NCBI RefSeq assembly: GCF_004116725.1
Contig: NZ_PDKG01000004.1
Span: 124,001-188,000, forward strand
DNA: 64,000 bases
Origin: Arcobacter sp. CECT 8986
Lineage (GTDB): Bacteria > Campylobacterota > Campylobacteria > Campylobacterales > Arcobacteraceae
Reading direction: 5' to 3'
The translations under genes and the position numbers were made by a program. The notes under the pieces are model-generated. The model did no database searches and was not told the DNA's origin. It was given only the letters and a program-made list of their open reading frames with translations. Shown here piece after piece: positions 22,675-39,879 of the stretch. How positions within the stretch are numbered: the stretch's first letter is position 1; each line of letters opens with the position of its first letter.

Positions 22675-23301
22675 TTAATTATAAATTGAAATTAATTTTT
22701 CTTGGTCAATCTCTCTTTTTTTCATATCAATATAACCTTTATCTTTATAGTTTCTAAGAACTCTTGATAAAGTTTCTGGTGTTATATTTAACATCTGTGC
22801 AATTAAGACATTTTTAGTTTTAAAAAAATCTTCTTGATTCTCAACTATATACTTTGCAACTCTTTCATGTGTATCTAACACAAGTTGAGAAGAGATAATT
22901 CTTTCTAAATTTTTTATCTTCTTAATCAAAGAAGATTGAATTTTTAAAATCATTGTTTCATTAGAATAGATAATCTTTTTAAACTTCTCAAAATCAATCT
23001 TTAAAACTTCACATTCACTATATGCTAATGCTGTTGCAGGATAAGGAATATTTTCAAAATTACTTAACTCTGCAATAAGCTCATTATCATAAAAGTATTT
23101 CATTACAATCTCTTTGTTTGTACTTGTACTTTTGTAAAGTTTCACAATACCTTTTACCAATAAATGCAAATATTTTGACTCATCGCCCTCATAAAAAATT
23201 ATGTTATCTTTTGAAAAATTAGTTTTTATTGAAATTTTTTCAATTTTTTTCAATATCTTTTCATCTAAATCTTCAAAAAGATAAAGCTCTTTTAAATTCA
23301 T
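22675..23301 (-). CDS. Crp/Fnr-family regulator (first copy)
   Basis: A cyclic-nucleotide-type sensor domain (about 1-120) and a C-terminal helix-turn-helix. The recognition helix is ITPETLSRVLRNYK, with the E..SR pattern that in FNR reads TTGA half-sites. The N-terminal cysteines that hold an Fe-S cluster in FNR are absent; the only cysteine is in YSECEVL. Oxygen sensing by a cluster is therefore unlikely, and a heme- or NO-sensing (DNR/NNR-like) mode is more plausible. It follows the TrpD2-like gene by 9 bases. Confidence 0.84.
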   Translation of the reverse strand: MNLKELYLFEDLDEKILKKIEKISIKTNFSKDNIIFYEGDESKYLHLLVKGIVKLYKSTSTNKEIVMKYFYDNELIAELSNFENIPYPATALAYSECEVLKIDFEKFKKIIYSNETMILKIQSSLIKKIKNLERIISSQLVLDTHERVAKYIVENQEDFFKTKNVLIAQMLNITPETLSRVLRNYKDKGYIDMKKREIDQEKLISIYN

Positions 23302-24328: not shown

Positions 24329-24994
24329 TTGAATTTACAAGAAACTATAAAATCTATTGATTTTTTTAATAGATTAACAGAAGAACAAATAGAGATATTG
24401 AGTGATTTTTCAAATATCACATCATATAAAAAAGACTCTATTTTATATTACGAAAGTGATGAAAATAATAAATTAATGTTTTTAATAGAGGGTTTATTAA
24501 AAGTATATAAAGTTGATAAATTCGGAAATGAGATTTTTTTATATCACATTTATAGCAATAATATGATTTCAGAACTTTCATCAATTAATAATACAAAAAT
24601 TCACTGTTTTTCTAATGCAGAGTTTATTGAAGATTCAAAAGTTTTATCAGTTGATTATGAAAAATTTAAAGAGAATTTTTTAGATAAAAATATATTAACC
24701 TCTGAACTAATAGAAGTTTTATTAAATAAAAGTCAGCAGTTTCAGTGTATTATAAATAGAGAGCTTGTATTTGATGCAACGGCAAAAGTTGCATTTATGT
24801 TAAAGCAAGATTTACATATGTTTAATAAACTAAAAAGACAAGAAGTATCTTTTATGCTTCATATTCAACCTGAAACTTTGTCAAGAGTATTAAAAAGATT
24901 GACAAGAAATAATATTATAAATATTGAAAATGGGGATGTACAAATCATTGATGAAAATTCATTGGTATCTATATTTAAAGGTATTGGGGTATGA
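24329..24994 (+). CDS. Crp/Fnr-family regulator (second copy)
   Basis: Paralogue of the regulator at 22675. The start is TTG at 24329 with GGGG upstream; nearby ATG codons are in another frame. The sensor domain spans about 1-120 and the recognition helix is IQPETLSRVLKRL, again with the FNR-like E..SR readout. It lacks an FNR-type N-terminal cysteine cluster. Its stop overlaps the next gene (ATGA), coupling it to the nitrate-sensor-like protein. The two together precede napA and are good candidates to control it. Confidence 0.84.
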   Translation: MNLQETIKSIDFFNRLTEEQIEILSDFSNITSYKKDSILYYESDENNKLMFLIEGLLKVYKVDKFGNEIFLYHIYSNNMISELSSINNTKIHCFSNAEFIEDSKVLSVDYEKFKENFLDKNILTSELIEVLLNKSQQFQCIINRELVFDATAKVAFMLKQDLHMFNKLKRQEVSFMLHIQPETLSRVLKRLTRNNIINIENGDVQIIDENSLVSIFKGIGV

Positions 24995-25980
24995 AAAAGT
25001 CACAAACAATTAGTAGTAAAATCAAAACTATTGGATTAATTTTTGTAATTTTAGTTGCAAGTTTAATTGCTACAACTATTTATTTAAATGAAAAAAATGA
25101 AAAAGATGCGTTGATTATAAATATTGCTGGTAAACAAAGAATGCTTACTCAAAGAATTTCTAAAAATGTATTTTATTTATATCATAACAATAAAAAAAGT
25201 TTCACAGAATTAGACAATGCAGCACAAGAGTTCATATATAATCTAAACTCTTTAAAAAATGGTAATACACTAATAAGTATAAACAAATCACCAACAGATG
25301 AGATTTCTAATCAAATTTCTAAAGTTGAGATTTTATGGAATAACTTTTACAAAAATATAAATAAATTTGAAGAGTTACTTCAATCAAGAGATAAAAATGA
25401 TAAAAAAACAGAAGATATACTAAAAAGTATTGTTGAAAATGTTTATGAAACAAATAACAAACTTTTAAATGAAGTTGATGAAATTGTTAGTTTATACACA
25501 ACTTATGCAGAAAATAAAACAGATTTCATAACATATTTTCAATATCTATTTGCACTTATAATTATTTTATTAATTGTATATAGTTACTTCAAATTAAAAA
25601 ATATGGAAGAAAATGCAAAAAAATTCCTTGAACTTACAAAAAAAATAAAAGATGGAAAAATTGCAGAACCAATTGATATGGCTGATTTTCAAGCTGAAGA
25701 TGAAATTGCAGAAGCCACAACTTCAATAAATTGTTTTATAAATAAAATAAATACAGCTATGAAATACTCAGATAGTGCTTCTAAAAAGCTTGAAGATTTA
25801 ACTAATGAATTTGATGAAATACTAGAAGAGTTAAAAGATTCTCAAGATTTATCAAATCAATTATTTAAAAGTGAAGATATGGTTATCGAATCACAAGAAA
25901 ACTTACTAAACTTCACTCATAAACTTGAAGATTTGAAAAAAGAGTTAAATTCTCTTTCTCAAAATTGTAATCATAAGTAA
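24991..25980 (+). CDS. NarX-like nitrate-sensing (PilJ-domain) membrane protein without kinase
   Basis: A 329-residue protein with helices at about 13-30 and 184-203. Residues 43-56 (INIAGKQRMLTQRI) match the P-box by which NarX/NarQ bind nitrate, including the arginine (R50 here) that contacts the anion. After helix two comes a HAMP-like segment and a long coiled coil, but no histidine kinase, ATPase or chemotaxis signalling tip. It overlaps the Crp/Fnr gene by 4 bases and lies before napA. It may pass a nitrate signal by protein contact. Confidence 0.78.
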   Translation: MKKSQTISSKIKTIGLIFVILVASLIATTIYLNEKNEKDALIINIAGKQRMLTQRISKNVFYLYHNNKKSFTELDNAAQEFIYNLNSLKNGNTLISINKSPTDEISNQISKVEILWNNFYKNINKFEELLQSRDKNDKKTEDILKSIVENVYETNNKLLNEVDEIVSLYTTYAENKTDFITYFQYLFALIIILLIVYSYFKLKNMEENAKKFLELTKKIKDGKIAEPIDMADFQAEDEIAEATTSINCFINKINTAMKYSDSASKKLEDLTNEFDEILEELKDSQDLSNQLFKSEDMVIESQENLLNFTHKLEDLKKELNSLSQNCNHK

Positions 25981-26658: not shown

Positions 26659-26700
26659 TTGACTAAGGTCAATAATTATAAATAAAATAAGTGATACAAT
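26659..26700 (+). promoter_or_regulatory. napA promoter with FNR-type box at -41.5
   Basis: TTGAC-TAAG-GTCAA (26659-26672) is a perfect inverted repeat of the FNR type. TACAAT at 26695-26700 is the -10 box, so the deduced start is about 26707 and the box is centred at -41.5, the class II activator position. On the minus strand TATATA (26636-26631) stands at the same distance, so the box could also serve the divergent siroheme gene. Confidence 0.75.
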
Positions 26701-39446: not shown

Positions 39447-39552
39447 TTCTAATTTTTGATAATTTTGTAAAGAGTAAAATAAATAATAATTTTGGTAATT
39501 CATCACTTTATTTTGACATATTCTGATTTTTTTTTAAAATTTTTCATAAAAA

Positions 39553-39574
39553 ATGCAAAATTTATGCAAAATTT
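39553..39574. repeat. Tandem 11-bp repeat upstream of the candidate small RNA
   Basis: ATGCAAAATTT occurs twice with no gap. The 11-bp period is one turn of DNA, so a protein could bind both copies on one face. It ends 30 bases before the FNR-type box at 39605. Confidence 0.5.
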
Positions 39575-39604
39575 ATATAAACATCACAAAAATATCACCT
39601 TGAT

Positions 39605-39646
39605 TTGATATAAATCAATTATATAATTTTTAAAAGGTTATATAAT
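39605..39646 (+). promoter_or_regulatory. FNR-type promoter of the candidate small RNA
   Basis: TTGAT-ATAA-ATCAA (39605-39618) is a perfect FNR consensus inverted repeat. TATAAT at 39641-39646 is a perfect -10 box. The deduced start is 39653, putting the box centre at -41.5, the same geometry as at napA. No protein-coding gene with normal signals follows. Confidence 0.75.
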
Positions 39647-39652
39647 TACGAT

Positions 39653-39780
39653 TAAAGAAGTTAAGTGTTTATAAATGTCTCCTTCCCTACATAATAAATC
39701 TAACTTCAACTTCTTTATTCTTCCCAATTCTCTCTTTATATCATTCTCATTCCTAACTTAAATAAAGAGAGAATTTTTTT
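39653..39780 (+). ncRNA. Candidate FNR-controlled small RNA with C/U-rich loops
   Basis: About 128 nt. TAAAGAAGTT at 39653-39662 pairs with AACTTCTTTA at 39708-39717, enclosing a loop with TCTCCTTCCCTAC (39678-39690). A second unpaired pyrimidine stretch (TTCTTCCC, 39718-39725) precedes a 14-bp terminator stem with seven T. C/U-rich single-stranded stretches are what repressing small RNAs use to cover ribosome binding sites. TCTCCTT is complementary to AAGGAGA in front of napA and of aapM. The strand is clear from promoter and terminator polarity. An ORF of 28 codons (39675-39761) has no ribosome binding site and is a less likely product. Confidence 0.65.
39726..39780 (+). terminator. Intrinsic terminator of the candidate small RNA
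   Basis: AATTCTCTCTTTAT (39726-39739) and ATAAAGAGAGAATT (39762-39775) pair over 14 bp with a 22-base loop, and T continues to 39780. The orientation is plus. Confidence 0.85.
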
Positions 39781-39811
39781 AAGAAGCTCATCAAATATTT
39801 TGATAAAAAAG

Positions 39812-39849
39812 ATGCGAATAAATTATAAAAAATGCGAATTTCTTATAAA
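39812..39849. repeat. Two 20-bp-spaced copies of ATGCGAAT-N3-TTATAAA
   Basis: The units lie at 39812-39829 and 39832-39849, with the first base of each 20 bp apart, two helical turns. They lie between two terminators, where no gene is evident. They could be a tandem protein-binding site. Confidence 0.45.
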
Positions 39850-39851
39850 CT

Positions 39852-39877
39852 AAAAGGAAACCGACGGGTTTCCTTTT
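39852..39877. terminator. Terminator of serS (bidirectional)
   Basis: AAAAGGAAACC and GGTTTCCTTTT form a perfect 11-bp stem with a GACG tetraloop, flanked by T or A runs. It lies 2 bases beyond the serS stop, and on the plus strand gives a second stop after the small RNA. Confidence 0.88.
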
Positions 39878-39879
39878 TT

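Follow-up and report, generated by a model that had tools for sequence, protein, structure and literature searches.

In the 64,000-nucleotide stretch of DNA analysed here (the window), the gap beside the housekeeping gene serS (39447-39879, 433 bases, as an initial annotation had given it) carries what, judged from its sequence, is a real, undescribed and genus-specific gene for a structured small RNA (sRNA) with its own predicted promoter. The case drawn from the sequence consists of promoter anatomy, RNA structure, covariation, invariance of the loops, presence throughout the genus Malaciobacter, lack of a conserved protein and a promoter layout like that of nap. The explanation that we favour, and consider fairly probable, is a stand-alone Malaciobacter sRNA that would be activated by an Nss/DNR-type regulator in response to nitrate or nitric oxide (NO), and would act in trans on mRNAs through two loops, independently of Hfq. 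The positions of the features are given in Table 1.

Table 1. Elements of the sRNA unit and related features of the window
Feature	Position	Strand	Basis or remark
Crp/Fnr-superfamily regulator 1, candidate sRNA regulator	22675-23301	-	Lacks N-terminal cysteines; ETLSR recognition helix
Crp/Fnr-superfamily regulator 2, candidate sRNA regulator	24329-24994	+	Best solved-structure relative is DNR (3dkw)
TTGACTAAGGTCAA upstream of napA	26659-26672	+	22 nt before TACAAT; same layout as the sRNA promoter
Crp/Fnr-superfamily (Nss/DNR-type) operator TTGATATAAATCAA	39605-39618	+	Perfect palindrome; predicted centre -41.5
Upstream TATAAT, possible second (overlapped) promoter	39622-39627	+	Equally invariant in six genomes; absent from the initial annotation
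-10 TATAAT of predicted class II promoter	39641-39646	+	Begins 22 bases after the box TTGATATAAATCAA; invariant in 6/6
Small RNA, predicted body	39653-39780	+	Start deduced from the -10; 3′ end either 39780 or about 39881
5′ hairpin, long interrupted stem	39653-39717	+	Folding; six-copy fold comparison; covariation
Apical loop CUCCUUCCCU of 5′ hairpin	39679-39688	+	Within invariant 23-mer ATGTCTCCTTCCCTACATAATAA (39675-39697)
Hairpin 2	39726-39775	+	14-bp stem, 22-base loop with invariant CATTCCTAA; terminator-like in own species, then Ts
Direct repeat ATGCGAAT-N12-ATGCGAAT	39812-39839	.	Conserved; between hairpin 2 and serS-side terminator
Intrinsic terminator-like hairpin, shared with convergent serS	39852-39877	+	Hairpin there in 6/6 species, T-run in 5/6

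The predicted promoter consists of a perfect TTGAT-N4-ATCAA box and a perfect TATAAT, both lying where they had previously been placed. The start of the RNA was set at 39653 from a -10 element ending at -7, and relative to this predicted start the Crp/Fnr-type box is centred at -41.5. From this layout we infer transcription from about 39653, which is also the first base of the 5′ hairpin. In an alignment of the six Malaciobacter genomes the box is invariant, as are both TATAAT elements, AAAGAAGTT/AACTTCTTT, the 23-mer ATGTCTCCTTCCCTACATAATAA and the loop-2 sequence CATTCCTAA. The invariance of the second, upstream TATAAT counts against activation, as it would place the box in a repressing position. 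That element could be a second promoter, blocked by bound regulator. If it drove the RNA, a regulator bound over it would shut off transcription in the presence of nitrate or NO, and both TATAATs are indeed conserved, with a candidate promoter, TTGATT-N16-TATAAT, that scores 10/12. However, the TTGATT -35 is lost in two of the six genomes (G003 and G004), and the downstream TATAAT lies 22 nt from the box, a spacing also seen at the nap, HPP and hemerythrin promoters described below; we consider a repressing box quite unlikely.

For the predicted transcript (128 nt), folding gives two hairpins with an energy of -27 kcal/mol and a z score of -6.8; none of 200 shuffled sequences was as good. The 5′ hairpin had been described as a 10-bp stem enclosing a loop; the apical loop CUCCUUCCCU is there, but its stem runs to more than 10 bp, with interruptions. 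The second C/U-rich single strand of the same description is borne out as the loop of hairpin 2, in which CATTCCTAA is found unchanged in six genomes. Within the 64-kb window no Rfam family matched at or above its gathering cut-off, and no tRNA was detected.

The full unit was found beside serS in six of six Malaciobacter genomes searched. When 120 relatives were searched at the DNA level, it turned up in full only in the remaining five Malaciobacter genomes (E 7e-71 to 3e-32), and a 20-mer scan of named genomes picked out Malaciobacter halophilus DSM 18005 and Arcobacter sp. CECT 8985 as two carriers. All six copies share one fold (z -5.7 to -7.2). In a held-out test, a model (R2) made from three halophilus-like species found each of the remaining three, with E values from 1e-11 to 1e-14. 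In an alignment fitted to the structure, which favours the pairing figures, 92.7% of cells pair and seven pairs have changes on both sides, compared with 2.5 in shuffles (1 in 500 as high) and with 0 or 1 when the structure was slid along the alignment. A conserved secondary structure with covariation is thus present. Compensatory changes in the stem of hairpin 2 are visible by eye in the six-genome alignment, and the loops are unchanged across the genus whereas the stems vary.

These observations bear on whether the region is a gene at all, or a DNA element made up of regulator sites and inverted repeats at the 3′ end of serS. Inverted repeats exist as DNA too, and a conserved direct repeat, ATGYGAAT, lies downstream. 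The presence of a promoter, of a stem positioned at +1 and of compensatory changes nevertheless argues for a gene, and A-U to G-U changes in helix 2, together with single-stranded loops more conserved than the stems, suit an RNA. A DNA element is very improbable.

A second model (R1), run over 104 genomes of the family, matched only in the six Malaciobacter; the covariance search proposed in the initial annotation therefore finds the structure nowhere in the family outside this genus. Searches for homologues outside the genus, with R1 over the 104 family genomes and R2 over 24 serS flanks, gave only matches in coding sequence or below threshold. A weak extra R1 match and a one-mismatch match to the loop 16-mer, both outside the genus, lie inside genes. 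In 24 genomes from other genera, the region 3′ of serS contained no perfect box and no copy of the loop, and viral sequences gave no match to the unit. A Methylobacterium match in the 20-mer scan of named genomes and a second, partial match of 30 bases in the own genome (C1:272779) were taken as chance. On the side away from serS the neighbour changes: three species have a small exported protein there, and three, by eye, a cytochrome c assembly-type protein. By this distribution the unit is specific to the genus and goes with its serS side.

The initial annotation had pointed to a 28-codon frame starting at the loop ATG (39675-39761) as a potential conserved protein, and no such protein is present. 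Its length is 28, 26, 26, 27, 16 and 10 residues in the six genomes, with unrelated ends, and no Shine-Dalgarno sequence precedes the ATG. A short peptide, or a dual-function RNA, is suggested by the first nine codons (MSPSLHNKS), which are identical in 6/6 genomes. This identity, however, takes in nearly all synonymous sites and falls within the hairpin. We regard a peptide as extremely improbable and the sRNA as not protein coding. Nor would the RNA be a leader, since no same-strand gene follows it and serS is convergent.

A 14-bp terminator with seven Ts had been proposed as the 3′ end. The 14-bp hairpin and the Ts are there in the window's own copy, but the clean seven-T run after hairpin 2 is found in that copy only, the relatives having AATTATTTT, AAAATTTA, AATTAAAA and similar sequences. 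The hairpin on the serS side may be an alternative 3′ end; a 228-nt form reaching it folds with a z score of -5.1. The ATGYGAAT repeat has a period of 20-21 bases and is kept in the genus with variants (5/6 genomes by strict pattern; one copy is degenerate in one species), and is absent at serS in other genera. It also flanks a minus-strand TATAAT. In one Malaciobacter genome (G001; L071, 2773-2974) a perfect 61-base tandem repeat of 3.3 copies lies between the sRNA unit and serS. The ATGYGAAT repeat remains beside the sRNA in this genome despite the displacement of serS, and we therefore assign it to the sRNA unit.

The RNA had been called FNR-controlled. A Crp/Fnr-type box in the predicted activator position and a predicted promoter of its own were found as described, but the identification of FNR as the regulator has to be abandoned. 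A search with PF13545 detected only two Crp/Fnr proteins in the genome, both encoded in the window, with moaA, napA and the gene for a PilJ-domain sensor-like protein as neighbours; a third, weak match was rejected as a MarR-like protein by eye. Neither of the two has the N-terminal cysteine cluster of FNR, and no FNR with [4Fe-4S] cysteine ligands was found in the genome. Their scores against the FNR model are 25 and 21 bits, with a cut-off of 228. The recognition helix of each contains ETLSR, with the E--SR pattern that reads TTGA. FNR is without an orthologue in Campylobacterota, as are ArcA and NarP (PMC6682613), and the Nss-type regulators of Campylobacterota use TTGA-N6-TCAA (PMC11539149), a consensus that the box fits. 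Missing FNR cysteines, low FNR scores, the ETLSR helix, the relationship to DNR and these two reports therefore lead us to name the box Nss/DNR-type. Between a Crp/Fnr gene and nap, and immediately following the former, lies a gene (24991-25980 of the window) for a protein with a PilJ-type (NarX P-box-like) sensor domain and no evident output domain; it is a possible nitrate sensor partner.

The genome contains 17 perfect boxes, compared with 12 matches to a reversed control, so that most of them would be chance occurrences. Four of the 15 examined are intergenic and in a position to serve a promoter, upstream of the sRNA, an HPP-family gene, a NarJ/TorD-like gene and a hemerythrin gene. At the sRNA (in 6/6 species), HPP, hemerythrin and napA, the box is followed, exactly 22 bases on, by the start of a -10 element that has no more than one mismatch; the NarJ-like gene has no such -10 at this distance from its box. 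In the DNA examined, 11 of 34 distinct box/-10 pairs have the 22-base spacing, six of the 11 being the sRNA itself. In the AT-rich window DNA, a -10 hexamer of this quality would fall on any single position with a frequency of about 3.4%, from which we calculate about 1e-4 for three of four independent boxes at 22 bases. The sRNA thus has a TTGA-N6-TCAA operator in common with nitrate respiration genes, at equal spacing. We take this spacing, shared with nap, HPP and hemerythrin, as the best evidence for a place in the nitrate regulon, and the sRNA likely belongs with these promoters. By the same layout the HPP-family membrane protein (G000:C1:377275, L037) and the hemerythrin (G000:C5:178275, L049) are likely regulon members.

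The sequence TCTCCTT of the sRNA is, as had been noted, the exact complement of AAGGAGA in front of napA and aapM. These two genes are not singled out, however, AAGGAGA preceding 4 of the 49 window genes tested; the best duplex is formed with napA. In the interaction prediction suggested earlier, run here against the ribosome sites of the 49 window genes, the two loops performed somewhat better than composition-matched shuffles, which were as good in 10/200 and 4/200 cases, but the preference for Shine-Dalgarno sequences is modest and partly due to C/U composition. The nonamer complement GGGAAGGAG was found at no ribosome binding site of the own genome, and the loop-2 complement GTTAGGAATG inside genes only. 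A search for GAAGGAGA-N2-9-ATG over the six genomes, in which 76 sites were read, gave about 12 sites per genome. The only gene with GAAGGAGA in 6/6 was ccoP (cbb3 oxidase, by eye), whose ribosome site GAGAAGGAGAG (G000:C4:256527; orthologues L219-L224) is invariant in the genus and pairs with 8 bases of loop 1. We rejected ccoP as a target: its AAGGAGA is present family-wide, including genera without the sRNA, and lies within the ccoQ coding sequence. A small c-type cytochrome of 93 aa (L137, L142, L140) has a GAAGGAGA ribosome site in three genomes (G000, G002, G005) and is a possible target.

The motif searches revealed no target with conserved, extended complementarity or co-evolving pairing. 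The earlier suggestion that chosen mRNAs (napA, aapM) are repressed is accordingly not upheld, their complementarity being generically anti-Shine-Dalgarno; anti-Shine-Dalgarno action of the loops as such is plausible. If the invariant loops were protein sites rather than mRNA seeds, the RNA would regulate by binding protein or by another non-pairing route. The lack of a co-evolving target fits such a route, as does the invariance of the 23-base loop with its flanks, stem bases included. Against it, the 128-nt RNA contains no GGA motif for CsrA, and exposed C/U loops in two hairpins are usual for pairing sRNAs, such as RepG of Campylobacterota (PMC8295292). On balance we hold a non-pairing route to be unlikely.

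Transcription, the identity of the regulator, its signal and the mode of action are the parts of the favoured explanation that we infer. An Nss/DNR-type Crp/Fnr regulator, probably the product of one of the two genes next to nap, would bind the box and activate transcription of the sRNA. The signal, at low oxygen, would be nitrate or products of its reduction, NO being the likeliest. The RNA, with its 3′ end at either hairpin 2 or the terminator on the serS side, would act in trans without Hfq, for which no match over the cut-off was found in the genome. Its two exposed C/U-rich loops would pair with G/A-rich mRNA sequences, most likely around ribosome binding sites, and translation would be lowered. 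This mode of action is suggested by analogy to FnrS, RoxS and RepG (PMC8139620, PMC8295292). More tentatively, at a little under an even chance, it would be the first Campylobacterota sRNA directly in the Nss (nitrate/NO/N2O) regulon, an Hfq-free RNA invented within one genus, whose two anti-Shine-Dalgarno loops would lower several mRNAs at the onset of nitrate respiration.

The literature searched describes no RNA matching the Malaciobacter unit and reports no sRNA as a member of an Nss regulon. A review of respiratory regulation in Campylobacterota mentions no respiratory sRNA (PMC6682613), and an intergenic survey of Arcobacter sp. L leaves motifs confined to a genus unnamed (PMC6429828). 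In Malaciobacter, a marine genus, the sRNA is probably undescribed and probably tied to nitrate or NO respiration. Respiratory sRNAs such as FnrS, PaiI and RoxS are already known in other phyla; a genus-wide RNA under an Nss-type promoter would offer a small, testable case of Hfq-free post-transcriptional adjustment of respiration, and of a new sRNA arising inside one genus at a fixed location.

The box itself has its counterpart in Wolinella succinogenes Nss and Campylobacter jejuni NssR, DNR-type Crp/Fnr regulators of nap, nor and nos that use TTGA-N6-TCAA (PMC11539149, PMC6682613). PaiI of Pseudomonas aeruginosa (126 nt) and NarS of Salmonella are induced with nitrate respiration (PMC8139620, PMC5703892). 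PaiI requires NarL, and NarS requires FNR/NarL, in contrast to the Nss-type Crp/Fnr box found here; NarS is moreover cut from a 3′ UTR, unlike the stand-alone sRNA of Malaciobacter. The C-rich loop motifs of RoxS/RsaE (Bacillus/Staphylococcus) pair with Shine-Dalgarno regions. These RNAs are induced with NO by ResDE (PMC8139620) and differ in promoter type and phylum. In Helicobacter pylori RepG, a C/U-rich terminator loop pairs with a G-rich mRNA leader; RepG, however, binds homopolymeric G-repeats, and its homologues are reported in Helicobacter only (PMC8295292). Neither RoxS/RsaE nor RepG was matched through Rfam. FnrS of Escherichia coli is activated by FNR and represses mRNAs (PMC8139620). 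It likewise has no Rfam match here, and homology is not shown; the Malaciobacter regulator is Nss/DNR-like rather than FNR, and no Hfq was found. The sRNA nevertheless resembles FnrS as a predicted short stand-alone RNA that would be switched on by a Crp/Fnr-family regulator for anaerobic respiration.
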